DNA from: Lineus longissimus
Lineage: Eukaryota; Nemertea; Pilidiophora; Heteronemertea; Lineidae
Length of the DNA stretch: 64,000 nucleotides
Assembly (NCBI RefSeq): GCF_910592395.1
Contig: NC_088321.1
Span: 3,160,001 to 3,224,000 of the forward strand
Reading direction: 5' to 3'
In this document: piece by piece, positions 4,040 to 59,624 of the stretch
Layout: every line of letters begins with the position of its first letter
How positions within the stretch are numbered: position 1 is the first letter of the stretch
Translations under genes and position numbers: made by a program
The notes under the pieces: generated by a model
What the model saw: the letters and a program-made list of their open reading frames with translations, nothing else
Told to the model about the DNA's origin: nothing
Database searches by the model: none

Positions 4040-4492
4040 GAGACAAGACCACTAATGAATATTCCTAGGTTGGAGGGTCGAGGCCTATCAATCAGACGAG
4101 TGCATGTTTTTAACTCTCAAGTACATATTTGGAGAGGTATTGAAAACATATTTGTTGTGGCAAGTCTACAGATATAAAGAAATTTTTTGATGAAAAAAAT
4201 AATTTCGAATTTTGCTAATTGGGTAATAGGGGGCGTGTTTTGAGTTTTTTCTGCCAGTTGGCTGAAAAGAGTGGAAATATCAAAGTCTGTATAATTTGTC
4301 GATTATCAAAAAATGTCCGTGGTCAACTACCAGTTTATTTTTCACCATTTACTTGTCCGACTGTCCGGAATATCATATCAAAATTTCAGATTCACAACCC
4401 CACGCAGTATTTGATGCGTCGCGGTCAAACATTGACAATTTAACTGCTAAAAGGCTTAACAAATCAATTGTGGTCTTGTCTCCTGATGGGTA
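4040..4492 (-). mobile_element. MITE of the GAGACAAGACCAC family, copy A
   Basis: It starts GAGACAAGACCAC and ends with the complement GTGGTCTTGTCTC. The interior matches, in opposite orientation, the MITE modules of the array at 28088-40435 and is parallel to the copy at 59171-59624. Flanking tetramers are CTAA and CTGA (3 of 4 identical), consistent with a decayed 4-bp target duplication. It has no coding capacity. Strand is given relative to the array modules (taken as plus). Confidence 0.8.
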
Positions 4493-27182: not shown

Positions 27183-27373
27183 GGGCCCGGTTGCACAAAA
27201 GTGAATAATAGTCAAAAATCACTGTTAGTTTATTTTGGCGTTAACTTAACTCCAAAAAGTGAATTTGGGTTGCAAGAAAGAAAATAATTTAAAAGTAGCG
27301 TTAAGTTAACGCTAACTTTAACTGACCTCCTAACCCCAAGATAAATCCCTATTTTGGAGTTAGCTGAAACAAA

Positions 27374-27715
27374 ATGGCGGACAACCAGGCCCTGTTTGTG
27401 GCTTTCCAGCCATTTTTTCAAGCTCCACGGCATTTTAGACAAAGAATCAACCACTTGGAGTTCTTCAATGACAATAAACTTTTTAAAAGATACCGTTTTT
27501 GCAGAGAAACCATTGTTTTGATAGTTGAATTGCTCAGGGAGGTCATTGAAAGTGCGACCGACAGAAGCCATGCAATTTCGCCTGAGGTGCAAGTCTTGAT
27601 TGCTCTCCGTTATTTTGCATCTGGAGCTATCTTTGATATTATTGGGGACACTTTCGGTGTAGACAAAGCTAGTGTAAGTCGTGTGGTGCACAGGGTGGCT
27701 GGCCTGTTAAATCCA
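27374..27715 (+). pseudogene. HARBI1-like transposase, first exon only
   Basis: The reading starts at ATG 27374 (AAAATGG) with MADNQALFVAFQPFF, then HLEFFNDNKLFKRYRFCRET and a helix-turn-helix-rich block VQVLIALRYFASGAIFDIIG, GVDKASVSRVVHRVAGLL. This is the N-terminal DNA-binding half of PIF/Harbinger transposases. After about 114 codons it runs directly into antisense MYB/SANT sequence, so the catalytic DDE domain has been deleted. The homologous segment of Harbinger-2 is at 47850-48455, giving an independent check on the family. Codons beyond 27715 on this strand are not transposase. Confidence 0.88.
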
Positions 27716-28083
27716 CCAGTGATGCCTCTGAATGCTGCATCTTTTTCAAATTTGTCTATGATATTCTGCAGTGTAGGGTCGGCCTGTGGCATCTTTCCCC
27801 CTCCTCCAGTCCCTCTCTGGTGTTTTTGTCGCAGGGAATGGATCTCTTTCGCCTTTGAAAGCTGCTGGTTCCATTTTACCCTGCAGTTATCCCCGGTCCT
27901 TGTGGCCACTCCCAAGGAACTAACCTTTAGGGCAATTTCATCCCATTTGTATTTTTTCATTTTGTTTTTCACATCTGACGAAAACTTTTATCGCAAGATC
28001 CCAAGTTCATTTGTTACAGGATCAACTAAAACTTGGGCTTCTGAGTGCGAAAAATTCGGTTTTCTCTCCCTTTTTTGCTTTTG
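27716..28083 (-). pseudogene. Harbinger MYB/SANT-like DNA-binding protein, exon 1 (main part)
   Basis: Read on the minus strand, this follows the first ten codons (at 40440-40465) after the array. It encodes a basic start (QKQKRERKPNFSHSEAQVLV), then YKWDEIALKVSSLG, ATRTGDNCRVKWNQQLSKAK and a glycine-rich linker. The W...VKW spacing and RTGDNCRVKW block are those of the MYB/SANT-like domain in Harbinger accessory proteins, which carry the transposase into the nucleus and bind element ends (family knowledge). A TAA at 27988-27990 interrupts helix 1. The 3' side is cut by the deletion that fused it to the transposase exon. A pseudogene. Confidence 0.8.
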
Positions 28084-28087
28084 AGAT
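28084..28087. repeat. 4-bp target duplication AGAT, left copy
   Basis: AGAT lies immediately left of the array and again at 40436-40439 immediately right of it. Counting one copy, the MYB frame passes through without a shift. Confidence 0.7.
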
Positions 28088-28530
28088 GAGACAAGACCAC
28101 AATTGATTTTTTAAGCCTTTTAGCAGTTAAATTGTCAATGTTTGACCGCGACGCATCAACAAACGCGTCAAGTAGTGAAACTGAAATTCGGATATGATAT
28201 ACGGGTTAGTCTTGCGAGTAACTGGTGCGATGGAAATTGGTGATTGACCACGGAAATTTTTTTATAATCGACAAATTAGACAGACTTTGATATTTCCACT
28301 GTTTTCAGCCAACTGGCAGAAAAAACTCAAAACACGCCCCCTATTACCCAATTAGCAAAATTCGAAATTAATTTTTTCATCAAATAATTTCTTTATATCT
28401 GTAGACTTGCCACAGCAAATATTTTTTCAATACCTCTCCAAATATGTACTTGAGAGTAAAAAACATGCACTCGTCTAATTGATAGGCCTCGACCCTCCAA
28501 CCTATGAATATTCATTAGTGGTCTTGTCTC
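28088..28530 (+). mobile_element. MITE module 1 of the array (reference copy)
   Basis: 443 bp, terminal inverted repeats GAGACAAGACCAC and GTGGTCTTGTCTC. The interior contains GTTTGACCGCGACGCATCAA and an ATTACCCAATTAGCAAAATT block that also define copies at 4040-4492 and 59171-59624 (opposite orientation). No coding capacity. The other twelve modules begin at the positions given for the array. Confidence 0.9.
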
Positions 28531-28585
28531 AATGAAGGTACATTTCAGGGGTTAACATTTTGAGATTTTTTTCAAACTAATGTAG

Positions 28586-28764
28586 ATGACATCCCACAAC
28601 TCTCCAACAAAGGAAAGTCATATCTGGACATTTTTGGAGAAATGAGAGACATTTCAAAGAGTGGTACAACTGTGCCAAAGCGACGAAAGAGGACAAAATC
28701 GACAAAAAGTCATGATTTTGCAGCCAACAGCACCAAATTCAAAGACCTGCCCTGGCCAGAATAA
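28586..28764 (+). CDS. Exon-like open frame in array spacer 1 (repeated in every unit)
   Basis: A pyrimidine-rich tract and AG (28584-28585) precede a frame that runs to TAA at 28762-28764. It encodes about 58 residues starting DIPQLSNKGKSYLDIFGEMR, then a basic block VPKRRKRTKSTKSHDF resembling a nuclear localisation signal, and ends FKDLPWPE. No ATG opens it (a TGA lies upstream in frame), so it would be a 3'-terminal exon entered with two bases completing a codon. It recurs in all twelve spacers at the 992-base period; the third copy has an extra A in the AAAAAG run near 30690, which breaks the frame. I do not recognise the protein. It may be a captured host exon or a transposon exon. Because copies are so similar, their shared frame is not evidence of selection. 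Confidence 0.4.
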
Positions 28765-31700
28765 GCAAGCTATGGAGCTGAAAATTTAGGATGTGATTTA
28801 GGAATATATTTGCTGCTTAGGGCACAACTTTCAGAATCAAGGCCTAAGTAGTTTCAAAGAAATTACAAAATGAATGGCAACACAACAAGACTTGTAAAAA
28901 TGAAACCGAACTTAGACCGGGGTTAGGTTGACTCTTATTTGGGTCAAATTAAGTTTTTTTCTCATTATTTTAGCTTGTTTTGACCTTAAATCATCAGCAA
29001 TACAATATTCTAAATGAATTAGAGTGATTTGAGCACATTCAAATTTTTCACTATATTGACCCAAAATGTAGTGTAAATAGAGACAAGACCACAATTGATT
29101 TTTTAAGCCTTTTAGCAGTTAAATTGTCAATGTTTGACCGCGACGCATCAACAAACGCGTCAAGTAGTGAAACTGAAATTCGGATATGATATACGGGTTA
29201 GTCATGCGAGTAACTGGTGCGATGGAAATTGGTGATTGACCACGGAAATTTTTTTATAATCGACAAATTAGACAGACTTTGATATTTCCACTGTTTTCAG
29301 CCAACTGGCAGAAAAAACTCAAAACACGCCCCCTATTACCCAATTAGCAAAATTCGAAATTAATTTTTTCATCAAATAATTTCTTTATATCTGTAGACTT
29401 GCCACAGCAAATATTTTTTCAATACCTCTCCAAATATGTACTTGAGAGTAAAAAACATGCACTCGTCTAATTGATAGGCCTCGACCCTCCAACCTATGAA
29501 TATTCATTAGTGGTCTTGTCTCAATGAAGGTACATTTCAGGGGTTAACATTTTGAGATTTTTTTCAAACTAATGTAGATGACATCCCACAACTCTCCAAC
29601 AAAGGAAAGTCATATCTGGACATTTTTGGAGAAATGAGAGACATTTCAAAGAGTGGTACAACTGTGCCAAAGCGACGAAAGAGGACAAAATCGACAAAAA
29701 GTCATGATTTTGCAGCCAACAGCACCAAATTCAAAGACCTGCCCTGGCCAGAATAAGCAAGCTATGGAGCTGAAAATTTAGGATGTGGTTTAGGAATATA
29801 TTTGCTGCTTAGGGCACAACTTTCAGAATCAAGGCCTAAGTAGTTTCAAAGAAATTACAAAATGAATGGCACAACAAGACTTGTAAAAATGAAACCGAAC
29901 TTAGACCGGGGTCAGGTTGACTCTTATTTGGGTCAAATTAAGTTTTTTTCTCATTATTTTAGCTTGTTTTGACCTTAAATCATCAGCAATACAATATTCT
30001 AAATGAATTAGAGTGATTTGAGCACATTCAAATTTTTCACTATATTGACCCAAAATGTAGTGTAAATAGAGACAAGACCACAATTGATTTTTTAAGCCTT
30101 TTAGCAGTTAAATTGTCAATGTTTGACCGCGACGCATCAACAAACGCGTCAAGTAGTGAAACTGAAATTCGGATATGATATACGGGTTAGTCTTGCGAGT
30201 AAACTGGTGCGATGGAAATTGGTGATTGACCGCGGAAATTTTTTTTATAATCGACAAATTAGACAGACTTTGATATTTCCACTGTTTTCAGCCAACTGGC
30301 AGAAAAAACTCAAAACACGCCCCCCTATTACCCAATTAGCAAAATTCGAAATTAATTTTTTCATCAAATAATTTCTTTATATCTGTAGACTTGCCACAGC
30401 AAATATTTTTTCAATACCTCTCCAAATATGTACTTGAGAGTAAAAAACATGCACTCGTCTAATTGATAGGCCTCGACCCTCCAACCTATGAATATTCATT
30501 AGTGGTCTTGTCTCAATGAAGGTACATTTCAGGGGTTAACATTTTGAGATTTTTTTCAAACTAATGTAGATGACATCCCACAACTCTCCAACAAAGGAAA
30601 GTCATATCTGGACATTTTTGGAGAAATGAGAGACATTTCAAAGAGTGGTACAACTGTGCCAAAGCGACGAAAGAGGACAAAATCGACAAAAAAGTCATGA
30701 TTTTGCAGCCAACAGCACCAAATTCAAAGACCTGCCCTGGCCAGAATAAGCAAGCTATGGAGCTGAAAATTTAGGATGTGATTTAGGAATATATTTGCTG
30801 CTTAGGGCACAACTTTCAGAATCAAGGCCTAAGTAGTTTCAAAGAAATTACAAAATGAATGGCAACACAACAAGACTTGTAAAAATGAAACCGAACTTAG
30901 ACCGGGGTCAGGTTGACTCTTATTTGGGTCAATTAAGTTTTTTTCTCATTATTTTAGCTTGTTTTGACCTTAAATCATCAGCAATACAATATTCTAAATG
31001 AATTAGAGTGATTTGAGCACATTCAAATTTTTCACTATATTGACCCAAAATGTAGTGTAAATAGAGACAAGACCACAATTGATTTTTTAAGCCTTTTAGC
31101 AGTTAAATTGTCAATGTTTGACCGCGACGCATCAACAAACGCGTCAAGTAGTGAAACTGAAATTCGGATATGATATGCGGTTAGTCTTGCGAGTAACTGG
31201 TGCGATGGAAATTGGTGATTGACCACGGAAATTTTTTTATAATCGACAAATTAGACAGACTTTGATATTTCCACTGTTTTCAGCCAACTGGCAGAAAAAA
31301 CTCAAAACACGCCCCCTATTACCCAATTAGCAAAATTCGAAATTAATTTTTTCATCAAAATAATTTTCTTTATATCTGTAGACTTGCCACAGCAAATATT
31401 TTTTCAATACCTCTCCAAATATGTACTTGAGAGTAAAAAACATGCACTCGTCTAATTGATAGGCCTCGACCCTCCAACCTATGAATATTCATTAGTGGTC
31501 TTGTCTCAATGAAGGTACATTTCAGGGGTTAACATTTTGAGATTTTTTTCAAACTAATGTACATGACATCCCACAACTCTCCAACAAAGGAAAGTCATAT
31601 CTGGACATTTTTGGAGAAATGAGAGACATTTCAAAGAGTGGTACAACTGTGCCAAAGCGACGAAAGAGGACAAAATCGACAAAAAGTCATGATTTTGCAG

Positions 31701-34700
31701 CCAACAGCACCAAATTCAAAGACCTGCCCTGGCCAGAATAAGCAAGCTATGGAGCTGAAAATTTAGGATGTGGTTTAGGAATATATTTGCTGCTTAGGGC
31801 ACAACTTTCAGAATCAAGGCCTAAGTAGTTTCAAAGAAATTACAAAATGAATGGCAACACAACAAGACTTGTAAAAATGAAACCGAACTTAGACCGGGGT
31901 CAGGTTGACTCTTATTTGGGTCAAATTAAGTTTTTTTCTCATTATTTTAGCTTGTTTTGACCTTAAATCATCAGCAATACAATATTCTAAATGAATTAGA
32001 GTGATTTGAGCACATTCAAATTTTTCACTATATTGACCCAAAATGTAGTGTAAATAGAGACAAGACCACAATTGATTTTTTAAGCCTTTTAGCAGTTAAA
32101 TTGTCAATGTTTGACCGCGACGCATCAACAAACGCGTCAAGTAGTGAAACTGAAATTCGGATATGATATACGGGTTAGTCTTGCGAGTAACTGGTGCGAT
32201 GGAAATTGGTGATTGACCACGGAAATTTTTTTATAATCGACAAATTAGACAGACTTTGATATTTCCACTGTTTTCAGCCAACTGGCAGAAAAAACTCAAA
32301 ACACGCCCCCTATTACCCAATTAGCAAAATTCGAAATTAATTTTTTCATCAAATAATTTCTTTATATCTGTAGACTTGCCACAGCAAATATTTTTTCAAT
32401 ACCTCTCCAAATATGTACTTGAGAGTAAAAAACATGCACTCGTCTAATTGATAGGCCTCGACCCTCCAACCTATGAATATTCATTAGTGGTCTTGTCTCA
32501 ATGAAGGTACATTTCAGGGGTTAACATTTTGAGATTTTTTTCAAACTAATGTAGATGACATCCCACAACTCTCCAACAAAGGAAAGTCATATCTGGACAT
32601 TTTTGGAGAAATGAGAGACATTTCAAAGAGTGGTACAACTGTGCCAAAGCGACGAAAGAGGACAAAATCGACAAAAAGTCATGATTTTGCAGCCAACAGC
32701 ACCAAATTCAAAGACCTGCCCTGGCCAGAATAAGCAAGCTATGGAGCTGAAAATTTAGGATGTGGTTTAGGAATATATTTGCTGCTTAGGGCACAACTTT
32801 CAGAATCAAGGCCTAAGTAGTTTCAAAGAAATTACAAAATGAATGGCAACACAACAAGACTTGTAAAAATGAAACCGAACTTAGACCGGGGTCAGGTTGA
32901 CTCTTATTTGGGTCAAATTAAGTTTTTTTCTCATTATTTTAGCTTGTTTTGACCTTAAATCATCAGCAATACAATATTCTAAATGAATTAGAGTGATTTG
33001 AGCACATTCAAATTTTTCACTATATTGACCCAAAATGTAGTGTAAATAGAGACAAGACCACAATTGATTTTTTAAGCCTTTTAGCAGTTAAATTGTCAAT
33101 GTTTGACCGCGACGCATCAACAAACGCGTCAAGTAGTGAAACTGAAATTCGGATATGATATACGGGTTAGTCTTGCGAGTAACTGGTGCGATGGAAATTG
33201 GTGATTGACCACGGAAATTTTTTTATAATCGACAAATTAGACAGACTTTGATATTTCCACTGTTTTCAGCCAACTGGCAGAAAAAACTCAAAACACGCCC
33301 CCTATTACCCAATTAGCAAAATTCGAAATTAATTTTTTCATCAAATAATTTCTTTATATCTGTAGACTTGCCACAGCAAATATTTTTTCAATACCTCTCC
33401 AAATATGTACTTGAGAGTAAAAAACATGCACTCGTCTAATTGATAGGCCTCGACCCTCCAACCTATGAATATTCATTAGTGGTCTTGTCTCAATGAAGGT
33501 ACATTTCAGGGGTTAACATTTTGAGATTTTTTTCAAACTAATGTAGATGACATCCCACAACTCTCCAACAAAGGAAAGTCATATCTGGACATTTTTGGAG
33601 AAATGAGAGACATTTCAAAGAGTGGTACAACTGTGCCAAAGCGACGAAAGAGGACAAAATCGACAAAAAGTCATGATTTTGCAGCCAACAGCACCAAATT
33701 CAAAGACCTGCCCTGGCCAGAATAAGCAAGCTATGGAGCTGAAAATTTAGGATGTGGTTTAGGAATATATTTGCTGCTTAGGGCACAACTTTCAGAATCA
33801 AGGCCTAAGTAGTTTCAAAGAAATTACAAAATGAATGGCAACACAACAAGACTTGTAAAAATGAAACCGAACTTAGACCGGGGTCAGGTTGACTCTTATT
33901 TGGGTCAAATTAAGTTTTTTTCTCATTATTTTAGCTTGTTTTGACCTTAAATCATCAGCAATACAATATTCTAAATGAATTAGAGTGATTTGAGCACATT
34001 CAAATTTTTCACTATATTGACCCAAAATGTAGTGTAAATAGAGACAAGACCACAATTGATTTTTTAAGCCTTTTAGCAGTTAAATTGTCAATGTTTGACC
34101 GCGACGCATCAACAAACGCGTCAAGTAGTGAAACTGAAATTCGGATATGATATACGGGTTAGTCTTGCGAGTAACTGGTGCGATGGAAATTGGTGATTGA
34201 CCACGGAAATTTTTTTATAATCGACAAATTAGACAGACTTTGATATTTCCACTGTTTTCAGCCAACTGGCAGAAAAAACTCAAAACACGCCCCCTATTAC
34301 CCAATTAGCAAAATTCGAAATTAATTTTTTCATCAAATAATTTCTTTATATCTGTAGACTTGCCACAGCAAATATTTTTTCAATACCTCTCCAAATATGT
34401 ACTTGAGAGTAAAAAACATGCACTCGTCTAATTGATAGGCCTCGACCCTCCAACCTATGAATATTCATTAGTGGTCTTGTCTCAATGAAGGTACATTTCA
34501 GGGGTTAACATTTTGAGATTTTTTTCAAACTAATGTAGATGACATCCCACAACTCTCCAACAAAGGAAAGTCATATCTGGACATTTTTGGAGAAATGAGA
34601 GACATTTCAAAGAGTGGTACAACTGTGCCAAAGCGACGAAAGAGGACAAAATCGACAAAAAGTCATGATTTTGCAGCCAACAGCACCAAATTCAAAGACC

Positions 34701-37700
34701 TGCCCTGGCCAGAATAAGCAAGCTATGGAGCTGAAAATTTAGGATGTGGTTTAGGAATATATTTGCTGCTTAGGGCACAACTTTCAGAATCAAGGCCTAA
34801 GTAGTTTCAAAGAAATTACAAAATGAATGGCAACACAACAAGACTTGTAAAAATGAAACCGAACTTAGACCGGGGTCAGGTTGACTCTTATTTGGGTCAA
34901 ATTAAGTTTTTTTCTCATTATTTTAGCTTGTTTTGACCTTAAATCATCAGCAATACAATATTCTAAATGAATTAGAGTGATTTGAGCACATTCAAATTTT
35001 TCACTATATTGACCCAAAATGTAGTGTAAATAGAGACAAGACCACAATTGATTTTTTAAGCCTTTTAGCAGTTAAATTGTCAATGTTTGACCGCGACGCA
35101 TCAACAAACGCGTCAAGTAGTGAAACTGAAATTCGGATATGATATACGGGTTAGTCTTGCGAGTAACTGGTGCGATGGAAATTGGTGATTGACCACGGAA
35201 ATTTTTTTATAATCGACAAATTAGACAGACTTTGATATTTCCACTGTTTTCAGCCAACTGGCAGAAAAAACTCAAAACACGCCCCCTATTACCCAATTAG
35301 CAAAATTCGAAATTAATTTTTTCATCAAATAATTTCTTTATATCTGTAGACTTGCCACAGCAAATATTTTTTCAATACCTCTCCAAATATGTACTTGAGA
35401 GTAAAAAACATGCACTCGTCTAATTGATAGGCCTCGACCCTCCAACCTATGAATATTCATTAGTGGTCTTGTCTCAATGAAGGTACATTTCAGGGGTTAA
35501 CATTTTGAGATTTTTTTCAAACTAATGTAGATGACATCCCACAACTCTCCAACAAAGGAAAGTCATATCTGGACATTTTTGGAGAAATGAGAGACATTTC
35601 AAAGAGTGGTACAACTGTGCCAAAGCGACGAAAGAGGACAAAATCGACAAAAAGTCATGATTTTGCAGCCAACAGCACCAAATTCAAAGACCTGCCCTGG
35701 CCAGAATAAGCAAGCTATGGAGCTGAAAATTTAGGATGTGGTTTAGGAATATATTTGCTGCTTAGGGCACAACTTTCAGAATCAAGGCCTAAGTAGTTTC
35801 AAAGAAATTACAAAATGAATGGCAACACAACAAGACTTGTAAAAATGAAACCGAACTTAGACCGGGGTCAGGTTGACTCTTATTTGGGTCAAATTAAGTT
35901 TTTTTCTCATTATTTTAGCTTGTTTTGACCTTAAATCATCAGCAATACAATATTCTAAATGAATTAGAGTGATTTGAGCACATTCAAATTTTTCACTATA
36001 TTGACCCAAAATGTAGTGTAAATAGAGACAAGACCACAATTGATTTTTTAAGCCTTTTAGCAGTTAAATTGTCAATGTTTGACCGCGACGCATCAACAAA
36101 CGCGTCAAGTAGTGAAACTGAAATTCGGATATGATATACGGGTTAGTCTTGCGAGTAACTGGTGCGATGGAAATTGGTGATTGACCGCGGAAATTTTTTT
36201 ATAATCGACAAATTAGACAGACTTTGATATTTCCACTGTTTTCAGCCAACTGGCAGAAAAAACTCAAAACACGCCCCCTATTACCCAATTAGCAAAATTC
36301 GAAATTAATTTTTTCATCAAATAATTTCTTTATATCTGTAGACTTGCCACAGCAAATATTTTTTCAATACCTCTCCAAATATGTACTTGAGAGTAAAAAA
36401 CATGCACTCGTCTAATTGATAGGCCTCGACCCTCCAACCTATGAATATTCATTAGTGGTCTTGTCTCAATGAAGGTACATTTCAGGGGTTAACATTTTGA
36501 GATTTTTTTCAAACTAATGTAGATGACATCCCACAACTCTCCAACAAAGGAAAGTCATATCTGGACATTTTTGGAGAAATGAGAGACATTTCAAAGAGTG
36601 GTACAACTGTGCCAAAGCGACGAAAGAGGACAAAATCGACAAAAAGTCATGATTTTGCAGCCAACAGCACCAAATTCAAAGACCTGCCCTGGCCAGAATA
36701 AGCAAGCTATGGAGCTGAAAATTTAGGATGTGGTTTAGGAATATATTTGCTGCTTAGGGCACAACTTTCAGAATCAAGGCCTAAGTAGTTTCAAAGAAAT
36801 TACAAAATGAATGGCAACACAACAAGACTTGTAAAAATGAAACCGAACTTAGACCGGGGTCAGGTTGACTCTTATTTGGGTCAAATTAAGTTTTTTTCTC
36901 ATTATTTTAGCTTGTTTTGACCTTAAATCATCAGCAATACAATATTCTAAATGAATTAGAGTGATTTGAGCACATTCAAATTTTTCACTATATTGACCCA
37001 AAATGTAGTGTAAATAGAGACAAGACCACAATTGATTTTTTAAGCCTTTTAGCAGTTAAATTGTCAATGTTTGACCGCGACGCATCAACAAACGCGTCAA
37101 GTAGTGAAACTGAAATTCGGATATGATATACGGGTTAGTCTTGCGAGTAACTGGTGCGATGGAAATTGGTGATTGACCGCGGAAATTTTTTTATAATCGA
37201 CAAATTAGACAGACTTTGATATTTCCACTGTTTTCAGCCAACTGGCAGAAAAAACTCAAAACACGCCCCCTATTACCCAATTAGCAAAATTCGAAATTAA
37301 TTTTTTCATCAAATAATTTCTTTATATCTGTAGACTTGCCACAGCAAATATTTTTTCAATACCTCTCCAAATATGTACTTGAGAGTAAAAAACATGCACT
37401 CGTCTAATTGATAGGCCTCGACCCTCCAACCTATGAATATTCATTAGTGGTCTTGTCTCAATGAAGGTACATTTCAGGGGTTAACATTTTGAGATTTTTT
37501 TCAAACTAATGTAGATGACATCCCACAACTCTCCAACAAAGGAAAGTCATATCTGGACATTTTTGGAGAAATGAGAGACATTTCAAAGAGTGGTACAACT
37601 GTGCCAAAGCGACGAAAGAGGACAAAATCGACAAAAAGTCATGATTTTGCAGCCAACAGCACCAAATTCAAAGACCTGCCCTGGCCAGAATAAGCAAGCT

Positions 37701-40439
37701 ATGGAGCTGAAAATTTAGGATGTGGTTTAGGAATATATTTGCTGCTTAGGGCACAACTTTCAGAATCAAGGCCTAAGTAGTTTCAAAGAAATTACAAAAT
37801 GAATGGCAACACAACAAGACTTGTAAAAATGAAACCGAACTTAGACCGGGGTCAGGTTGACTCTTATTTGGGTCAAATTAAGTTTTTTTCTCATTATTTT
37901 AGCTTGTTTTGACCTTAAATCATCAGCAATACAATATTCTAAATGAATTAGAGTGATTTGAGCACATTCAAATTTTTCACTATATTGACCCAAAATGTAG
38001 TGTAAATAGAGACAAGACCACAATTGATTTTTTAAGCCTTTTAGCAGTTAAATTGTCAATGTTTGACCGCGACGCATCAACAAACGCGTCAAGTAGTGAA
38101 ACTGAAATTCGGATATGATATACGGGTTAGTCTTGCGAGTAACTGGTGCGATGGAAATTGGTGATTGACCACGGAAATTTTTTTATAATCGACAAATTAG
38201 ACAGACTTTGATATTTCCACTGTTTTCAGCCAACTGGCAGAAAAAACTCAAAACACGCCCCCTATTACCCAATTAGCAAAATTCGAAATTAATTTTTTCA
38301 TCAAATAATTTCTTTATATCTGTAGACTTGCCACAGCAAATATTTTTTCAATACCTCTCCAAATATGTACTTGAGAGTAAAAAACATGCACTCGTCTAAT
38401 TGATAGGCCTCGACCCTCCAACCTATGAATATTCATTAGTGGTCTTGTCTCAATGAAGGTACATTTCAGGGGTTAACATTTTGAGATTTTTTTCAAACTA
38501 ATGTAGATGACATCCCACAACTCTCCAACAAAGGAAAGTCATATCTGGACATTTTTGGAGAAATGAGAGACATTTCAAAGAGTGGTACAACTGTGCCAAA
38601 GCGACGAAAGAGGACAAAATCGACAAAAAGTCATGATTTTGCAGCCAACAGCACCAAATTCAAAGACCTGCCCTGGCCAGAATAAGCAAGCTATGGAGCT
38701 GAAAATTTAGGATGTGGTTTAGGAATATATTTGCTGCTTAGGGCACAACTTTCAGAATCAAGGCCTAAGTAGTTTCAAAGAAATTACAAAATGAATGGCA
38801 ACACAACAAGACTTGTAAAAATGAAACCGAACTTAGACCGGGGTCAGGTTGACTCTTATTTGGGTCAAATTAAGTTTTTTTCTCATTATTTTAGCTTGTT
38901 TTGACCTTAAATCATCAGCAATACAATATTCTAAATGAATTAGAGTGATTTGAGCACATTCAAATTTTTCACTATATTGACCCAAAATGTAGTGTAAATA
39001 GAGACAAGACCACAATTGATTTTTTAAGCCTTTTAGCAGTTAAATTGTCAATGTTTGACCGCGACGCATCAACAAACGCGTCAAGTAGTGAAACTGAAAT
39101 TCGGATATGATATACGGGTTAGTCTTGCGAGTAACTGGTGCGATGGAAATTGGTGATTGACCACGGAAATTTTTTTATAATCGACAAATTAGACAGACTT
39201 TGATATTTCCACTGTTTTCAGCCAACTGGCAGAAAAAACTCAAAACACGCCCCCTATTACCCAATTAGCAAAATTCGAAATTAATTTTTTCATCAAATAA
39301 TTTCTTTATATCTGTAGACTTGCCACAGCAAATATTTTTTCAATACCTCTCCAAATATGTACTTGAGAGTAAAAAACATGCACTCGTCTAATTGATAGGC
39401 CTCGACCCTCCAACCTATGAATATTCATTAGTGGTCTTGTCTCAATGAAGGTACATTTCAGGGGTTAACATTTTGAGATTTTTTTCAAACTAATGTAGAT
39501 GACATCCCACAACTCTCCAACAAAGGAAAGTCATATCTGGACATTTTTGGAGAAATGAGAGACATTTCAAAGAGTGGTACAACTGTGCCAAAGCGACGAA
39601 AGAGGACAAAATCGACAAAAAGTCATGATTTTGCAGCCAACAGCACCAAATTCAAAGACCTGCCCTGGCCAGAATAAGCAAGCTATGGAGCTGAAAATTT
39701 AGGATGTGGTTTAGGAATATATTTGCTGCTTAGGGCACAACTTTCAGAATCAAGGCCTAAGTAGTTTCAAAGAAATTACAAAATGAATGGCAACACAACA
39801 AGACTTGTAAAAATGAAACCGAACTTAGACCGGGGTCAGGTTGACTCTTATTTGGGTCAAATTAAGTTTTTTTCTCATTATTTTAGCTTGTTTTGACCTT
39901 AAATCATCAGCAATACAATATTCTAAATGAATTAGAGTGATTTGAGCACATTCAAATTTTTCACTATATTGACCCAAAATGTAGTGTAAATAGAGACAAG
40001 ACCACAATTGATTTTTTAAGCCTTTTAGCAGTTAAATTGTCAATGTTTGACCGCGACGCATCAACAAACGCGTCAAGTAGTGAAACTGAAATTCGGATAT
40101 GATATACGGGTTAGTCTTGCGAGTAACTGGTGCGATGGAAATTGGTGATTGACCACGGAAATTTTTTTATAATCGACAAATTAGACAGACTTTGATATTT
40201 CCACTGTTTTCAGCCAACTGGCAGAAAAAACTCAAAACACGCCCCCTATTACCCAATTAGCAAAATTCGAAATTAATTTTTTCATCAAATAATTTCTTTA
40301 TATCTGTAGACTTGCCACAGCAAATATTTTTTCAATACCTCTCCAAATATGTACTTGAGAGTAAAAAACATGCACTCGTCTAATTGATAGGCCTCGACCC
40401 TCCAACCTATGAATATTCATTAGTGGTCTTGTCTCAGAT

Positions 40440-40465
40440 GAATGATTCCCTATGGAGGCCGCCAT
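40440..40465 (-). pseudogene. Harbinger MYB/SANT gene, first ten codons
   Basis: On the minus strand ATG 40465 (context AAGATGGCGG) opens MAASIGNHSS, with the last codon completed across the AGAT duplication. The frame resumes at 28083 beyond the array. Start choice rests on the strong context and frame agreement; the same AAGATGGCG start is seen for the Harbinger-2 transposase. Confidence 0.6.
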
Positions 40466-40688
40466 CTTGCATGTCTTGCTTTCGATAGGAGGACCAAATG
40501 CATTATGGGAAATGTCCCTAGCAACTAACATTGATTTACTTAAAAGTAGCGTTAGTTAACATTGGGCCTAACATTGATTTGTGCAACTCAATTTTAGCGT
40601 TATGTTAGCTAACGCTAAGTTAGGGACTTTAACATAAAATGATAAACTAACATACTTTTATCACCATAACTTTTGTGCAACCGGGCCC

Positions 40689-47849: not shown

Positions 47850-48455
47850 ATGGCGTCTGCCAACTTGGCACTTTTTCCTGTTGAGGGAGTTTCTCGAAAA
47901 AAACGTATTTATTTGCCGCACACGAATCATTTAGAGACTTTCAGCGACAAGAAGTTATTTAAGTAAGAGATACAGATACACAAGAGAAACATTGATTTTG
48001 ATTTGCGATTTAATGAGAGAAGAGCTGGAGAGATCGACCAAGCGGTCTCACAGCCTGAGTGTAGAAATTCAAGTTTTAATAGCACTGCGCTTCTTTGCTT
48101 CGGGTGCCTTCCTAGAGGTTATAGGAGATACATTTGGTGTTGACAAGGCAACAGTTTCAAGGGTGGTTCACCATGTGGCTGATCTTCTCCACAACATGTC
48201 TGCTGACTTCATCAGGTGGCCTGACCATGAGGAAATGAAGCGTATAAAGAGGGTTTTTTTTGAGATTGCCCATTTTCCAAAAGTCCTTGGATGCAGTGAT
48301 GGCACCCATGTGCGAATAATAATGCCAAGTGCCCCAGAGAATGCGGATCTCCAGCTACTCCCCCTGCCACCACCAAGAGGTGAACAGCTTGCGGAGATGA
48401 ATGCCACAGAAAATGATGCAGAACCGGAAGAGGAAGAAGCAGGCAGGGCAGGACA
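47850..48455 (+). pseudogene. HARBI1-like transposase of Harbinger-2, N-terminal part
   Basis: ATG 47850 (AAGATGGCG) opens MASANLALFPVEG and NHLETFSDKKLFK, then a stop at 47964-47966; the homologous frame continues one base out of register with RETLILICDLMREELE, VEIQVLIALRFFASGAFLE, GVDKATVSRVVHHVADLL and ADFIRWPDHEEMKRIKR. The first catalytic aspartate is in VLGCSDGTHVRIIMPS. It then carries an unusual acidic, proline-containing insert (LLPLPPPRGEQL, later AEPEEEEAGRAG) before the BEL/Pao insertion. The frame resumes at 56066 after the retrotransposon, counting one copy of the GGACA duplication. The N-terminal frameshift makes it a pseudogene. Confidence 0.85.
48451..48455. repeat. 5-bp target duplication GGACA, left copy
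   Basis: GGACA precedes the 5' LTR and is repeated at 56061-56065 after the 3' LTR. Confidence 0.85.
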
Positions 48456-48702
48456 TGTTGGAGATTGACCTCTTAGTTTAATCTTAGGCCTAATGCTGTG
48501 TCGCCATCTGTGATTGTAGTTTGTAACCAAACCCCCTTTTTGTCTTTCCCGCCACTAAACTTGTTGGAGCTCTCCTATTGTTTTTACATTTTAAAGGTGC
48601 TAATAAAAGAGTTAGATTTGTAAAATAGAAACACGAGGGTTTCTTTCCGTTATTTAGCCGGCAAGTTTCGCCAATTTCGGGCTGGTTCCGTGGTCCCCGA
48701 AA
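48456..48702 (+). repeat. BEL/Pao 5' LTR
   Basis: It begins TGTTGGAGATTGACC and ends GTCCCCGAAA. An AATAAA signal lies at 48602-48607. Identical in my reading to 55814-56060. The end is not the usual CA; it is fixed by the GGACA duplication after the 3' copy. Confidence 0.93.
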
Positions 48703-48705
48703 TTG

Positions 48706-48723
48706 TGGTGCCGTAAACCCGGG
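48706..48723 (+). promoter_or_regulatory. Candidate primer-binding site
   Basis: TGGTGCCGTAAACCCGGG lies three bases after the 5' LTR and starts with TGG, complementary to a tRNA 3' CCA. I cannot name the tRNA. Confidence 0.6.
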
Positions 48724-48766
48724 AGAGTAAGAACTTAAGAAGGTTTTGAACACTTGTTTGGCGAAA

Positions 48767-51700
48767 ATGCCGGAGAACGAGGCCGGAGTTCCTGAAGGAC
48801 GTGATGCGGTCCGAAAATCACGCTCAGCGGCGAAAGGCTGGGTGACGCGTGCATCCAATGCACTGAAGCGTGCATGTAAGGATGCACGTCAACCGTTTGG
48901 GAAGGATGCCGTAAGTAAAGTGGCAATAGAAAGCTGTATCAATGACTTCGATCGATATTTGGTGTCATTTGAGAAGGCCCAATCGGAAGTTGAAATGACA
49001 ATCGAAGATGAGCTTGCACAAGAGCAAGACATTGATCAGGCCTTTGCTTTCATATCTGAGGCAAAGCAGTCTAGGCACGAGGCACAGATTATGTTGGAAG
49101 AGATTGTGACCCGTATGTCAAAGGGTCCAAAATCGAAAGACAGTAATGACGATTTCGATGACGGGGCAAGTTGTGCCTCGAACAGCTCCATGGCGTCGAT
49201 GGGAAGGGTACGCCTTCCCAAGTTGGAACTGCCAACCTTTTCAGGGGTGATAACGGAATGGCAGTCATTCTGGGACCAATTCACCGCACTTGTCGATGAA
49301 AACGAGAGTATACCGGAGATAAGCAAGTTCTCGTACCTCTCTTCGCTGCTCGAAGGTGAGGCTAAGTGTGTGATAAAGGGTCTCCCAGTGACGGAGGAGA
49401 ACTATCACATCGCAAGCAAGTTGCTAACGGATCGGTATGGAAGACGTGAAAGGATTATTTTCACACATGTTCAGGCCTTGTTAAATGCGTCTATGCCTGG
49501 ACACGGACAGGGTGGAAAGATGGTTGGAAATCGAGTTTCAGCACTTTGGCGGTTGCAGGACGAACTATTGCTACACATTCGCAGCCTCCAAGCCCTCGGT
49601 ATAGAGGGATCGGAATATGGTTTCCTACTGACCCCCCTGATTCTGTCACGCTTGCCTAATGACATACGTATGGAGTGGGCACGGGAGAGTGACGGAAGGG
49701 AAGCGGATTTGGAGTTCCTACTAGACTTCATGAAGAGGGAGATAAATCGACGAGAGAGATCGGAAACCTTTAAGGTTTTGACCAAGACTGACAATGTTGG
49801 TACCCAGGGACATGGGATTGATGCAACAGCTGACATGGCTGAGGACAAGCAACGTGTGGCGACTGCATCCGCCTTGCAGTCACCTAGTGTAGCCTCACAT
49901 TCTGGTGGTAATTCATGTGGTGTATGTGGGAAAACCCACCAGACTGAGAAATGCTGGGGATTGTTAAACCTCCCAGTTTCAGAGAGACATTCGAAGGTGC
50001 AGTCATGTAAGTTGTGTTTCAGGTGCTTGGGTAAGTCACACTTTGCCAAGGGTTGTATTGCACAATGTTCAAAGTGTAAGGGTCGACACCATGCCATTTT
50101 GTGCAATGGTGGTGGTGGTAGTGGTAAAGTGAACAAGGCTAGGCAAAGTGGTTCACCCTCTGTTAGCAAAACCCAGAGTGGTGATAGTAAGGGGACAGGT
50201 AAATCTAGTAGTAGTGATACTGGGGTCAAGACACCTGAGAAGTCTAAGGGTCAGGATACTGGTACGATGAAAGCTAATATGCATTCTATTTCAGCAGGTA
50301 GCAGTGTTAATTCAGGTAGTAGGGTGAACACTGTGCTACAGACAGCCAAGGTAAAGATAGTGGGCAGGCAGGGCTGCACTGAGGCAACATTGATGTTTGA
50401 CAGTGGGTCAGACAGGTCATACATCACCTCATCAATGGTAAAGAGAGTGAAACCGGAGTGGGTTGGCACAGAACCCATTTCTTATGCAGCCTTTGGGTGC
50501 AACACTCCTAGTGTGGAACGCCAGTGTAATATATACAATGTGCATTTGAGTGGCAGCCACACAGGTTCAGGTGAGAACATTTCTCTAAATGTCGCCGAGG
50601 TACCAGTCATTTGTAACCCATTGGTGAGGCCCTTGGTCCCGTGCGAACTGCTGAACATTCTCGGCTCTGACATCCAGTTGGCTGACTCAGTCTCAGAGAA
50701 CAGAGAGATTACAGTGGATATCCTCGTCGGTTTAGATCTTTATTGGAAACTCATGAAGCCACAGAGGTTCAGACAGGTTGGTGGGCTGGTTGCTCAGGAG
50801 TCGTGTTTTGGATGGGTCTTATCAGGTTCGTGGTCAGATTCAGGTGGTGGAGTTCAGTCTGTTCAATCAGGTGCTTGTTCAGTCTCCCCTCAGTTGATGT
50901 GCTTGGGGAATGTCGGTGACTCTGATCTGCGTAGATTCTGGGACTTGGAGTCCGATGGGATCTCTCTCACTGAACAGGAAACTTTGAACCCCAAAATTGA
51001 TCCTGTTTTGAAGCATTTTTCAGAGAACGTCCAGAAGAATGGGAGCCGATACCAGGTGGCGCTGCCTTGGAAATCGGAAACAGCCAAGGGCAGACTGCTG
51101 AACAACGAGGCAATGGCTTGGAAAAGGTTGAAGCAGCTGAACCGGCGATTTGATGGAGACCCTGAGCTGAAGCAAAGGTATGACCAAGTATTCCGTGAGT
51201 ATGAATCTAGTGGTTTCATAGTGGAGGTGCTGGCTCATGAGATGGAAAATCCCAACCCCACATTCTATCTGCCTCATCGGCCAGTCGTCCGTGAAGACAG
51301 CCTGACTACCAAGGTTAGGCCGGTGTTTGATGCCTCGGCATCAGGTTATAATGGGGTGTCCTTGAACGACTGTTTGGAGACTGGACCCTCATTGCTTGCT
51401 AGTCTGGTAGATATCCTGATTCGCTTCCGGCGATGGCCTGTAGCGATCACAGCAGATGTGACGAAAGCTTTCCTACAGATAGGAGTCCGACCCGAAGATC
51501 AAGATGTACATCGTTTCCTATGGGATGATGGTGGTAGGGTACGAGTCATGAAGTTTGTCAGGGTCCCCTTTGGGAACAAAGCAAGCCCATTCCTCCTGAA
51601 TGCGACGATAAGACATCACTTGGATAGTTATCCCCCCTCTGAAGTTGTACAGGAGTTGAAGGATAATATTTATATGGATGATTTCCTTTCAGGTTGCGAT

Positions 51701-53365
51701 GAGGCTACCAGAGGGTGTGAGGTATTCGATGAGGCACAAGAGGTGATGGGTGAAGCAGAGTTGACCTTTGCTAAGTGCACGTCCAACAACAAGGTGTTGG
51801 TGGACAAGTTTCGGAGCGACTTTGGTTCAAAGCATGTGGACAGTGAGTCGGTAAAGGTACTGGGTATGAGTTGGCTTTCCCGTGAGGATTGCTTTGTGTT
51901 TGAGGGCATTCCCCTTCCTCCCTCCGCAGAACTCAGTTGTACAAAGCGTGTTGTGTTGAGTTTCACTGCTCGACTCTTCGACCCCCTGGGGCTTCTTAGC
52001 CCTTTCATCATGATGGCAAAGATTCTTTTCCAAGAAATCTGGCGCCTTGGGTTGGGTTGGGATGAAGAGTTGCCCCCTGAGTTGAAGCTGCGTTTCATCT
52101 CATGGTTGGATGGCATTAGTGTCATCAAACAGTGGAAAATTCCCAGATGTTACACATCAGGTGGGCCTTGGAAGGGCATTGTGGGTCTGGAGCTGCATGC
52201 ATTTGGAGATTCTTCGACCCTTGGATATGGAGCTTGTGTGTACCTTAGGATTCCCAAGTCTGATGGTACTTATGAAGTATCGCTGGTGTTTGCCAGGGCC
52301 AGGGTTGCCCCTGTCAAGCCTGTGTCCTTGCCCCGATTGGAACTCATAGCCAGCCTGTTGTGTGCTCGAATTCTTGTGTTCACTCGCTCAGCCCTGAAGT
52401 TGCCAGAAGATACGACGTATCACTGTTATTCAGATTCTCAGGTTGCTCTAGCTTGGATCAAGGGAGACCCCTGTCGATGGAAAAGTTTTGTAGCGAACAG
52501 GGTTGGTGAGATTCAACAGCTCACCTCGCCCTCTCACTGGTCACATTGTCCAGGTCCTGAAAACCCATCAGACCTGGTTACGCGAGGGTTATCAGCCAAG
52601 AAATTGATCACTTCTGAGTCGTGGTTGCATGGTCCTGTGTGGTTGGCGTCGTCTTCAGACTCGGTTGACTTGATTGAGGAAGATTCGGAATTGGAGAATT
52701 GTGATGAATCGGTCTCAAGTCTTCTAGTGCCTGTTGGTGGTGAAGTTGTGAAACAGGAACCGGCAATCTCTCAGTTGTTTGACTTGAACAACTTGAAGTC
52801 CTATCCAAGGACAATTCGGCTTGTGGCTTTAGTGATGAGGTTCTGTCACAACCTACGGTCTGCTGCTTGTGATAGAAGGCTAGGACAGCTGTCTCAGGAT
52901 GAGAGGTCGAAGGCCCAGGTTCAGTTGTTCAGGTTGATGCAGGATGCTTCTTATCACCGTGAGATAGAAGCTCTGAGAAAGGGTAAACCCCTCCCAAGGG
53001 ATTCTGCTCACAAGGAGTTGGACCCCTTCTTGGATAAGACTGGATTGTTGAGAATGAAGGGACGTCTCCAGTTTTCTGAGCTCAGTTATGATAGTAAACA
53101 CCCAATCATTCTGCCCAAGGGACGAGTGTCCTACTTGCTGGTCAGATTTCAGCATTTCCTCATGAAACATGCTGGAGTCACCACTCTACTGACTGCCTTG
53201 AGGTCCAACTACTGGATAGTAGGCCTGAGACAGTTGGCCAAACATGTCTGTAAGGAATGTGTTCCATGCAGAATAGTTGAGGCGAGGGCATGTAATCAAG
53301 TCATGGCCCCCCCTCCCCGGATTTCGAGTAAAGGATGCTCCTTGCTTCGCGGTCACTGGCCTTGA
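48767..53365 (+). CDS. BEL/Pao Gag-Pol polyprotein (Gag to integrase zinc-binding domain)
   Basis: About 1,530 codons open from ATG 48767 (MPENEAG; GAAAATGCC context), preferred over upstream non-ATG codons. Approximate residues: Gag DUF1759-like region with LPKLELPTFSG and FWDQFTALVDENE (148-330); three knuckle clusters, CGVCGKTHQTEKC, CKLCFRCLGKSHFAKGC and CSKCKGRHHAILC (383-446); Ser/Gly/Lys-rich linker; aspartic protease with FDSGSDRSYI (about 545); RT with ITADVTKAFLQIGV and the YMDD box (969-972); RNase H with FGDSSTLGYGACVYL (about 1145) and CYSDSQVALAWIKG; integrase H2C2 zinc-binding segment ending HVCKECVPCR (about 1468-1502). The frame closes about 50 bases after a C7 run at 53307-53313, where the downstream integrase frame is one base out of register. 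It forms the retrotransposon's capsid and replication enzymes in the cytoplasm and nucleus. Confidence 0.95.
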   Translation: MPENEAGVPEGRDAVRKSRSAAKGWVTRASNALKRACKDARQPFGKDAVSKVAIESCINDFDRYLVSFEKAQSEVEMTIEDELAQEQDIDQAFAFISEAKQSRHEAQIMLEEIVTRMSKGPKSKDSNDDFDDGASCASNSSMASMGRVRLPKLELPTFSGVITEWQSFWDQFTALVDENESIPEISKFSYLSSLLEGEAKCVIKGLPVTEENYHIASKLLTDRYGRRERIIFTHVQALLNASMPGHGQGGKMVGNRVSALWRLQDELLLHIRSLQALGIEGSEYGFLLTPLILSRLPNDIRMEWARESDGREADLEFLLDFMKREINRRERSETFKVLTKTDNVGTQGHGIDATADMAEDKQRVATASALQSPSVASHSGGNSCGVCGKTHQTEKCWGLLNLPVSERHSKVQSCKLCFRCLGKSHFAKGCIAQCSKCKGRHHAILCNGGGGSGKVNKARQSGSPSVSKTQSGDSKGTGKSSSSDTGVKTPEKSKGQDTGTMKANMHSISAGSSVNSGSRVNTVLQTAKVKIVGRQGCTEATLMFDSGSDRSYITSSMVKRVKPEWVGTEPISYAAFGCNTPSVERQCNIYNVHLSGSHTGSGENISLNVAEVPVICNPLVRPLVPCELLNILGSDIQLADSVSENREITVDILVGLDLYWKLMKPQRFRQVGGLVAQESCFGWVLSGSWSDSGGGVQSVQSGACSVSPQLMCLGNVGDSDLRRFWDLESDGISLTEQETLNPKIDPVLKHFSENVQKNGSRYQVALPWKSETAKGRLLNNEAMAWKRLKQLNRRFDGDPELKQRYDQVFREYESSGFIVEVLAHEMENPNPTFYLPHRPVVREDSLTTKVRPVFDASASGYNGVSLNDCLETGPSLLASLVDILIRFRRWPVAITADVTKAFLQIGVRPEDQDVHRFLWDDGGRVRVMKFVRVPFGNKASPFLLNATIRHHLDSYPPSEVVQELKDNIYMDDFLSGCDEATRGCEVFDEAQEVMGEAELTFAKCTSNNKVLVDKFRSDFGSKHVDSESVKVLGMSWLSREDCFVFEGIPLPPSAELSCTKRVVLSFTARLFDPLGLLSPFIMMAKILFQEIWRLGLGWDEELPPELKLRFISWLDGISVIKQWKIPRCYTSGGPWKGIVGLELHAFGDSSTLGYGACVYLRIPKSDGTYEVSLVFARARVAPVKPVSLPRLELIASLLCARILVFTRSALKLPEDTTYHCYSDSQVALAWIKGDPCRWKSFVANRVGEIQQLTSPSHWSHCPGPENPSDLVTRGLSAKKLITSESWLHGPVWLASSSDSVDLIEEDSELENCDESVSSLLVPVGGEVVKQEPAISQLFDLNNLKSYPRTIRLVALVMRFCHNLRSAACDRRLGQLSQDERSKAQVQLFRLMQDASYHREIEALRKGKPLPRDSAHKELDPFLDKTGLLRMKGRLQFSELSYDSKHPIILPKGRVSYLLVRFQHFLMKHAGVTTLLTALRSNYWIVGLRQLAKHVCKECVPCRIVEARACNQVMAPPPRISSKGCSLLRGHWP

Positions 53366-54470
53366 CCATGGTGGCCCATTGTTTTGTATAGATTTTCCCA
53401 AGAAGAAATTCTATATCCTGTTGTTCACTTGCGCAGTGGTCCGGGCTGTCCACCTTGAGCTCACAGACTCATTGAACCTACCTGATTGTATCCTGGCGAT
53501 TCGGAGGTTTGCTGCTCGGAGGGGTCTCCCCTCTGAGTTCCATTCTGATAATGCAGCCACGTTCACTGGGGCAGATACTTTGTTGCAGCAGTATTTTGGT
53601 CCCCATAGTCCAAAGTGGAATTTCATCGCCCCAAGGTCCCCATGGTGGGGAGGGTTCTGGGAGCGGCTTGTGGGTTCAGTGAAGCGGTCTCTGAGGAAAT
53701 CGCTGGGTAAGAAATCACTGACTCGATCAGAGCTTGAGACTACGTTGCATGAGGTAGAGGCAAATGTCAACTCGCGACCTTTGACCTTCGTTGGTGACAG
53801 TTTGGATTCCCCAAACCCCTTGACACCTTCACACTTCCTCATTGGTAGGCCCGCTGGATTTCAAGTTGAGATTGCGAAAGATTCTCTCAATAATCCTGAG
53901 GTTGTGCTTGCGAAGGATTTGGGTGCTCGAGAAGCAGTCCGTCAAGCTAGGCTGGATGATTTCTGGAAGGTGTGGAGCGATGACTATTTGAGAAACCTTC
54001 CCCCTGTGTCTAAGAAATTTCAGGCTTCTTGCAATGTGAAGGTTGGATCAGTAGTGTTGATCAGAGAGGATCATGTCCCTCGGATGTCTTGGCCCCTAGC
54101 TGTGGTCACTGAGACCTTTCCTGGTAGGGATGGCATTGTGAGAAGTGTTCGCCTGAAGACTGCCACTGGGTTTCTCACTAGATCTGTTCAGAGATTACAT
54201 GACCTTGAAATCAGTGCACCCCTGCCTAACCAAGATTCTGATGCTTCTGAAACCAATAATGTTGATTTGAATGAATCCTTCAGTCAGGACCTTGTCGCTG
54301 ACTTGAGAGGAAATCTTGATACTGATGTTGACACTGAGGCAGTCTCTGGCGTTGAGACAAGCACAGAGACCCCCTCTAGGCCTAGTTGTGAATCTGATGA
54401 TAGCGTTGCTGTAGCGAAGACTACTAGAACTGGCCGGGTCGTTAGACCACGGGATAGATTGGATCTGTGA
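53277..54470 (+). CDS. BEL/Pao integrase core and C-terminal DUF5641 region (second frame)
   Basis: The integrase core continues in a frame offset from the upstream one. Catalytic positions are D in CIDF (53391-53393), D in HSDNAATF (53547-53549) and E in GFWERLVGSVK (53661-53663), giving D-51-D-37-E spacing. Before them lies LDHGGPLF, the usual lead-in. A DUF5641-like C-terminus includes VGSVVLIREDHVPRM, WPLAVV and VRSVRLKTATG, and the protein ends in an acidic, Ser/Thr-rich tail with TRTGRVVRPRDRLDL before TGA 54470. It has no good start of its own: the opening residues of the frame overlap the end of the upstream protein, so it is the remainder of Pol, separated by the C7-run offset. That may be a mutation, an assembly error or, less likely, programmed frameshifting. 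Confidence 0.9.
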   Translation: MRRGHVIKSWPPLPGFRVKDAPCFAVTGLDHGGPLFCIDFPKKKFYILLFTCAVVRAVHLELTDSLNLPDCILAIRRFAARRGLPSEFHSDNAATFTGADTLLQQYFGPHSPKWNFIAPRSPWWGGFWERLVGSVKRSLRKSLGKKSLTRSELETTLHEVEANVNSRPLTFVGDSLDSPNPLTPSHFLIGRPAGFQVEIAKDSLNNPEVVLAKDLGAREAVRQARLDDFWKVWSDDYLRNLPPVSKKFQASCNVKVGSVVLIREDHVPRMSWPLAVVTETFPGRDGIVRSVRLKTATGFLTRSVQRLHDLEISAPLPNQDSDASETNNVDLNESFSQDLVADLRGNLDTDVDTEAVSGVETSTETPSRPSCESDDSVAVAKTTRTGRVVRPRDRLDL

Positions 54471-55800: not shown

Positions 55801-55813
55801 AAGGTGGGGAGAA
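55801..55813 (+). promoter_or_regulatory. Polypurine tract
   Basis: AAGGTGGGGAGAA lies directly before the 3' LTR, the position of the plus-strand primer. Confidence 0.75.
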
Positions 55814-56060: not shown

Positions 56061-56065
56061 GGACA

Positions 56066-59170: not shown

Positions 59171-59624
59171 GAGACAAGACCACTTAATGAATATATTCCT
59201 AGGTTGGAGGGTCGAGGCCTATCAATTAGACGAGTGCATGTTTTTAACTCGCAAGTACATATTTGGAGAGGTATTGAAAAAATATTTGTTGTGGCAAGTC
59301 TACAGATATAAAGAAATTATTTGATGAAAAAATTAATTTTGAATTTTGCTAATTGGGTAATAGCCTAGGGGGCGTGTTTTGAGTTTTTTCTGCCAGTTGG
59401 CTGAAAACAGTGGAAATATCAAAGTCTGTCTAATTTGTCGATTATAAAAAAATTTCCGTGGTCAATCACCAATTTCCATCGCACCAGTTACTCGCAAAAC
59501 CCGTATATCATATCCGAATTTCAGTTTCACTACTTGACGCATTCTTTGAAGTTTGATGCGTCGCGGTCAAACATTGACAATTTAACTGCTAAAAGGCTTA
59601 AAAAATCAATTGTGGTCTTGTCTC
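59171..59624 (-). mobile_element. MITE of the GAGACAAGACCAC family, copy with exact 4-bp TSD
   Basis: 454 bp, same termini and interior as the array modules but in the opposite orientation, parallel to copy A. CACT flanks both ends (59167-59170 and 59625-59628), the clearest evidence that this family makes 4-bp duplications. Confidence 0.9.

Follow-up and report, generated by a model that had tools for sequence, protein, structure and literature searches.

A young tandem array of a MITE and an unrelated spacer, enclosed by a single 4-bp duplication within a Harbinger-like relic of Lineus longissimus

How does a tandem repeat come to begin and end exactly at the termini of a transposon? The question is raised by a locus of the nemertean Lineus longissimus, where roughly 12 kb of DNA, built of alternating copies of a miniature inverted-repeat transposable element (MITE) and a spacer of different sequence, lie inside a Harbinger-like element. 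We analysed this array within a window of 64,000 nucleotides (contig NC_088321.1 of assembly GCF_910592395.1, positions 3,160,001 to 3,224,000 of the forward strand), and all coordinates given here are counted from the first letter of that window. The origin of satellite DNA is usually guessed from old, homogenised arrays; the present array is young and sharp-edged, and its insertion site is defined. It makes two models separable, as it can be read from the outermost MITE arms which of the two came first, a resident MITE or a moving composite. A first-pass annotation of the same DNA had chosen the resident, seeing in a MITE already inserted at this site the landing pad for a circle or other donor that carried the same MITE together with foreign DNA. 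Our results lead us the other way. The array most likely reached its host as a transposon-ended package, and to the full account that we favour, a young composite transposon turned tandem array, we assign a probability of about one half.

An exact scan for MITE starts and MITE ends found 13 of each and resolved the interval 28088-40435 into 13 MITEs and 12 spacers in strict alternation (Table 1). Arranged head to tail, they amount to 12.3 kb, that is, 12 units of about 992 bp and a terminal MITE. These counts, the alternation and the presence of a MITE at both ends are as the first-pass annotation had described them, while the uniform lengths that it gave, 443 bp for the MITE and 549 bp for the spacer, hold for 11 of the 13 MITEs and 11 of the 12 spacers. 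Its observation that one exact duplication surrounds the whole array was borne out: AGAT stands directly outside both edges, and it is absent at all 24 inner borders. There the left tetramer is AATA and the right tetramer AATG, each in 12 of 12 cases, and since the inner borders are alike in every unit on a given side, the units derive from one segment. The two inner tetramers had been called different. They agree at three of four bases, a match equalled or bettered by 5.8% of random tetramer pairs from the window, and they may represent one duplication that mutated once.

The edges of the array are thereby the outer ends of two MITEs sharing one target duplication, which is the architecture of a composite transposon or macrotransposon. 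Its head-to-tail repetition is at the same time that of satellite DNA, seen here as one 12-kb array in the 64-kb window. No ATG-started open reading frame (ORF) of at least 60 amino acids was found wholly inside it; a single frame of that kind overlaps it (40298-40531, minus strand) and starts outside the array. This anatomy is real and exact to the base.

Table 1. Coordinates of the array, of the related MITE copies and of the host element in the window
Feature	Position	Strand	Remarks
Host element, Harbinger-like, from terminal inverted repeat to terminal inverted repeat	27183..40688	.	20-bp terminal inverted repeat GGGCCCGGTTGCACAAAAGT at 27183, reverse complement ending at 40688
Transposase remnant, Harbinger-like, N-terminal	27368..27730 (right edge approximate)	+	HTH_Tnp_4 19 bits, cut-off 27
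MYB/SANT-like frame after in-frame stop	27610..27987	-	Myb_DNA-bind_5 26.3 bits; joined flanks
Target duplication AGAT, left copy	28084..28087	.	4 bp
MITE 1	28088..28530	+	443 bp, identical to inner consensus
Spacer 1	28531..29079	+	549 bp
MITE 2	29080..29522	+	
Spacer 2	29523..30068	+	546 bp
MITE 3	30069..30514	+	446 bp
Spacer 3	30515..31063	+	
MITE 4	31064..31507	+	444 bp
Spacer 4	31508..32056	+	
MITEs 5-12 and spacers 5-12	32057..39992	+	443 bp each and 549 bp each
Starts of MITEs 5-12	32057, 33049, 34041, 35033, 36025, 37017, 38009, 39001	+	
MITE 13	39993..40435	+	443 bp, identical to inner consensus
Target duplication AGAT, right copy	40436..40439	.	
Solo MITE copy	4040..4482	-	443 bp, flanks CTAA/CTGA (one mismatch)
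Solo MITE copy	59171..59624	-	454 bp, exact flanks CACT/CACT

The units differ very little from one another. Eight of the 13 MITEs and eight of the 12 spacers are identical to their own consensus, and the mean number of pairwise substitutions is 1.0 among the MITEs and 0.64 among the spacers. Spacers 5-12 are all identical; among MITEs 5-12, MITEs 9 and 10 share one substitution and the other six are identical. Such near-identity supports a young array whose units were amplified together and recently, and in this respect the first-pass annotation had judged correctly. Some variants are common to units that are not adjacent, namely a G at column 164 of the MITE alignment (MITEs 3, 9 and 10) and an A at column 267 of the spacer alignment (spacers 1 and 3), which fits exchange or conversion inside the array.

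The repeated element itself carries exact 13-bp terminal inverted repeats (GAGACAAGACCAC), and it is short, non-coding and present in dispersed copies with a target duplication, as is characteristic of MITEs. Two solo copies in the window, not listed in the first-pass annotation, are full-length and lie in the orientation opposite to that of the array. One of them has an exact 4-bp duplication, and the flanks of the two solo copies together with AGAT point to 4 bp as the duplication length of this MITE family. Aligned with the array MITE, the copy at 4040 shows 40 substitutions and no gap, and that at 59171 shows 12 substitutions together with 19 gap columns; in an alignment of the solo copies with each other there are 41 substitutions, again with 19 gap columns. 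With up to two mismatches allowed, the 13-bp terminal motif occurs 31 times on both strands, against 1.25 occurrences expected. Target duplications of 4 bp are made by several superfamilies, for example Chapaev, Sola1 and Ginger, and we claim no superfamily name for the MITE. Neither do we claim strong hairpin behaviour for it, its single-strand fold being modest (z -1.9, a level matched by 4 of 100 shuffles). The window holds no Rfam match at gathering scores. The pattern of the MITE ends had no match in viral_contigs, a collection from which records of this genome were possibly left out, other contig, phage and plasmid collections being outside the search. Just past the solo MITE at 59171-59624 stands a tandem repeat of another kind, with a period of about 301-302 bp, in two blocks (60098-62040) of 1.9 copies with 87% matches and 3.7 copies with 84%.

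The spacer, which the first-pass annotation took for foreign DNA, appears to be just that. It has no copies elsewhere in the 64-kb window (BLAST, E 1e-3 or better) and no convincing similarity to the MITE, the best match having an E of 0.35; the comparison supports the view that it is neither MITE nor Harbinger sequence. Removal of one AATR copy from it leaves a closed unit of 545 bp. It gave no Pfam match at E 0.1, its best PDB match was at E 0.91, and two protein searches, one of them with a query of 60 amino acids, found no homologues; the second, with candidate lengths set by 400-residue read-through, returned 5 candidates, none of them at E <=1. The longest ORF of the spacer has 66 codons and was equalled or exceeded in 594 of 1000 shuffles. 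We had considered the spacer as a captured last exon, on account of a 60-codon open stretch behind the splice-acceptor-like TTTTTTTCAAACTAATGTAG, and dropped this candidate, the ORF length being at the level of chance and the searches having returned no homologues.

Without the array and one AGAT, the host element measures 1,154 bp. Its flanks (...GACTA and AGGGC...) contain no exact 3-bp pair, the nearest being TAG/CAG, alike at two of three bases, with the inverted repeat taken as one base shorter. The first-pass annotation had placed the array at codon 10 of a MYB/SANT exon. The site is right: once the array and one AGAT are taken out and the flanks rejoined, the minus-strand frame opens with MAASIGNHSS, from a start codon at 40465 on the far side of the array, and the duplication falls in codons 9-10. 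The gene is not. An in-frame stop follows residue 41 of the frame, which exceeds the cut-off for Myb_DNA-bind_5 (21.7 bits) and, at 26.8 bits, stays just below that for Myb_DNA-bind_4 (27). In our reading, the first 115-120 residues or so of the transposase frame remain and are followed by sequence antisense to the MYB frame; the remnant scores below the HTH_Tnp_4 cut-off, and a domain profile search gave no DDE match in the host copy. Over 78 amino acids it is 66.7% identical to a frame at 47959-48192, part of a relative at 47.8-57.5 kb that scores 45.6 bits for DDE_Tnp_4 (above the cut-off) and 22.9 for HTH_Tnp_4 (below it). Given the in-frame stop and the truncated transposase frame, the 'MYB gene' is a relic, and we take the host copy for a Harbinger-like element shortened by deletion, probably without a working gene.

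The relative just mentioned, a second Harbinger-like element at 47850-57485, has its HTH_Tnp_4 part at 47935-48468 and its DDE_Tnp_4 part at 57087-57485. It is interrupted by a Pao long terminal repeat (LTR) retrotransposon that codes in two overlapping frames, 48731-53365 and 53277-54470. Direct repeats of 248 bp at 48455-48702 and 55813-56060, 100% identical, resemble Pao LTRs and would mean a very young insertion. Of 501 residues in the Pao polymerase region, 500 agree with a Lineus longissimus protein record, a match that by itself would place the window in this species or a very close relative. Over the longer frame the identity to that record is 98.8% (16 mismatches and one gap in 1,531 columns), and the record therefore represents another copy, most likely from the same species.

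What history would account for this structure? Every biological model requires a transposase event at AGAT, and the edges lying exactly at MITE termini, with one exact AGAT pair outside them, are what would be expected if a transposase had set both outer edges. In the account that we favour, a MITE of the 4-bp-duplication family would first have entered unrelated DNA; its target, an AATR site, would today be read as AATA on the left and AATG on the right. The segment bearing it would then have duplicated head to tail, by way of a DNA circle, replication slippage or re-replication, to give MITE-spacer-MITE with identical MITEs. A transposase supplied in trans could next have paired the left end of one MITE with the right end of a later copy, as if they bounded a single element, and the piece would have landed in an already decayed Harbinger-like copy, creating AGAT. 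Unequal exchange between the directly repeated MITEs, before or after that transposition, would have set the present 12 units. We infer this order of events, and with it the donor, the mobility of the package, its copy number elsewhere and a decay of the host that preceded the insertion. The 3/4 agreement of AATA and AATG inclines us to see in them one old duplication around the donor MITE that has mutated once, more than a pair of unrelated sites. Over their whole length of 443 bp, MITE 1 and MITE 13 show no difference from an inner MITE. A eukaryotic parallel is offered by the composite insertions of maize Ac/Ds, taken up below. If composites of this sort are mobile, host DNA of any kind can travel as mobile tandem repeats with a MITE family that lacks its own transposase.

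Several considerations weigh against this account. The resemblance of the inner tetramers is weak evidence, given the 5.8% of chance pairs that match as well, and the argument drawn from identical outer and inner MITEs is based on three members of the family, a number too small for a decision. As these ends normally move elements of 443 bp, 12 kb would be a long load for them, and a MITE-spacer-MITE piece of 1.4 kb, moving first and growing in place, is likelier to have been the traveller than the full array. All 1-base indels of the array fall within MITE 3, spacer 3 and MITE 4 (30069-31507), and with indels thus confined to units 3 and 4, some of the variation may be sequencing error or a polishing artefact. 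The published L. longissimus assembly was made by hifiasm, with 10X polishing, from PacBio HiFi reads for which the DNA had been sheared to fragments of 12-20 kb, according to the part of the genome report that covers sequencing (PMC8593623); since the array is about as long as those fragments, the unit count could be off, and the exact number of units is less certain than the structure of the array. Near the left end of the window, a run of 100 N at 975-1074 marks an assembly gap.

Among the alternatives, the landing pad survives best. Here a single MITE would have sat at AGAT, and a circle or an ectopic gap-repair template carrying the same MITE and the 549 bp would have recombined into it and been amplified in place. 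The outcome would be no different as to the outer duplication, the alternation and the MITE termini at either edge, and inner tetramers unlike the outer one would be explained as well. What speaks against it are the outer arms of the array. By our reasoning, the outer arms of the resident would survive both one integration by MITE homology and any unequal exchange that came later, so that its left arm, in MITE 1, and its right arm, in MITE 13, should together cover the 443 bp of the resident MITE. These arms are identical to the inner MITEs, whereas family members differ by 12-41 substitutions, and with 12 differences expected, as in the closest pair seen, a simple Poisson assumption puts the probability of finding none at about 6e-6. 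Gene conversion, or an origin of both MITEs in one very recent burst, could keep the landing pad viable. Thus, of the first-pass proposal, a transposase-type insertion at one AGAT site and the joint amplification stand, and a resident MITE as the pad is possible, with a minority chance, and not favoured. A broader form of the idea, drawn by analogy from bacterial IS26, strikes us as rather doubtful: circles of a MITE and its passenger would enter a MITE already in place and accumulate there, dispersed MITEs would be entry ports for satellites, and the array would be mobile between functional MITE ends.

An unlikely route, in our judgement, is alternative (reversed-ends) transposition, in which two neighbouring direct MITEs would use their facing ends during replication and a rolling circle would re-replicate spacer and MITEs, as for maize bz1-m4-D6856. 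In maize it is proposed for three Ds-separated repeats, the third incomplete, inside a composite insertion with 8-bp duplications (PMC4270019), and at our locus it would produce all the identical units at once. Several of the maize products described there contain incomplete repeats or end-repair junctions, whereas at our locus every one of the 12 units is complete, the array has an intact MITE end at each edge, and the matches that BLAST gave for MITE and spacer in the window (E 1e-3 or better) were all full-length copies.

Still less probable is a pre-existing satellite of about 545 bp, one unit of which was entered by the MITE before the MITE-bearing variant spread. The closure of the 545-bp unit on removal of one AATR copy would suit it, as would the resemblance of AATA/AATG to one duplication; against it stand the confinement of the spacer to this array within the 64-kb window and the want of any MITE-free unit in the array. 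Such a satellite is compatible with the MITE-ended composite, of which it would form the first step. An expansion of a short MITE-spacer-MITE insertion by the assembler, suggested by an array of 12.3 kb near the size of the sheared fragments and by eight identical spacers among 12, is very improbable, as the assembly comes from HiFi reads and hifiasm, the outer duplication and the edges are exact, and the own or shared variants in units 1-4, 9 and 10 argue against copies of one read, leaving at most the unit number in doubt.

Three other coding stretches were noted in the window. Remnants resembling a Tc5/pogo transposase (13870-14998) score 21.4 bits for HTH_Tnp_Tc5, slightly below the cut-off, and 61 bits for DDE_1. 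A minus-strand reverse transcriptase frame at 5086-6543 (RVT_1, 89 bits) probably belongs to a non-LTR retrotransposon, the class being a guess. At 62227-62550 there is a frame with a THAP domain (PF05485, 27.6 bits).

The following comparisons draw on the portions of the cited papers that describe the repeats concerned. Full-length MITEs in tandem are known from Acropora corals, where CMITE elements form arrays, one of them with gaps between the elements; the authors consider replication slippage probable and the specific mechanism unclear (PMC2872659). Those elements differ from ours in being about 100 bp long, in having TTAA duplications and in being linked by the authors to piggyBac, and a single duplication around a whole array, as present here, is not reported in that portion of the paper. 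Maize Ac/Ds alternative transposition is reported to yield repeats of host DNA separated by Ds, and composite insertions that the authors liken to a macrotransposon and note as able to move again (PMC4270019). Like our array, these have repeated host DNA between transposon copies, with competent ends and target duplications outside. The maize insertions involve Ac, fractured Ac and Ds, 8-bp duplications and few repeats, with tandem duplications that in previous studies ranged from 8 kb to 5.3 Mb (PMC4270019), whereas the Lineus array involves MITEs, a 4-bp duplication and 12 complete units, its movement being putative. In the translocatable units and pseudo-compound transposons of IS26, direct repeats of the element alternate with passenger DNA, as they do here, and a circle of one element plus passenger is proposed to insert beside a resident copy (PMC7986276), which is the bacterial form of the landing pad. 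IS26 is a bacterial insertion sequence with a transposase and a reaction of its own, and flanking duplications are not necessarily present (PMC7986276).

Tandem repeats that arose in or from non-autonomous DNA transposons, MITE or foldback, and can spread with them include Xstir, miDNA4 and TIR-220 of Tetris (PMC9659126, PMC12628747, PMC4079207). As described there, those repeats lie inside the element or its terminal inverted repeat, whereas our unit is a whole MITE plus outside DNA, with MITEs at both edges. The heterochromatic Bari1 clusters of Drosophila resemble the Lineus locus as a DNA-transposon repeat cluster within another transposable element; they differ in belonging to Tc1-mariner, in having 80 repeats and in being ascribed to an anomalous rolling-circle mechanism with reintegration into an LTR retrotransposon (PMC9659126). 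At inversion breakpoints of Atlantic cod, too, tandem hAT-derived MITE sequence extends over kilobases, in units of 167-169 bp within hAT-derived elements and as inverted tandem repeats, with no passenger spacer described in the relevant part of the paper (PMC12368964). The exact architecture of the present array was not found in a library of open-licence papers, searched mostly at listing level. In its form the array is related to these known cases, and it illustrates neatly how transposons build tandem repeats. What it contributes beyond them is the cleanness of its edges, the one small duplication that encloses the entire array, and a passenger foreign to both elements.

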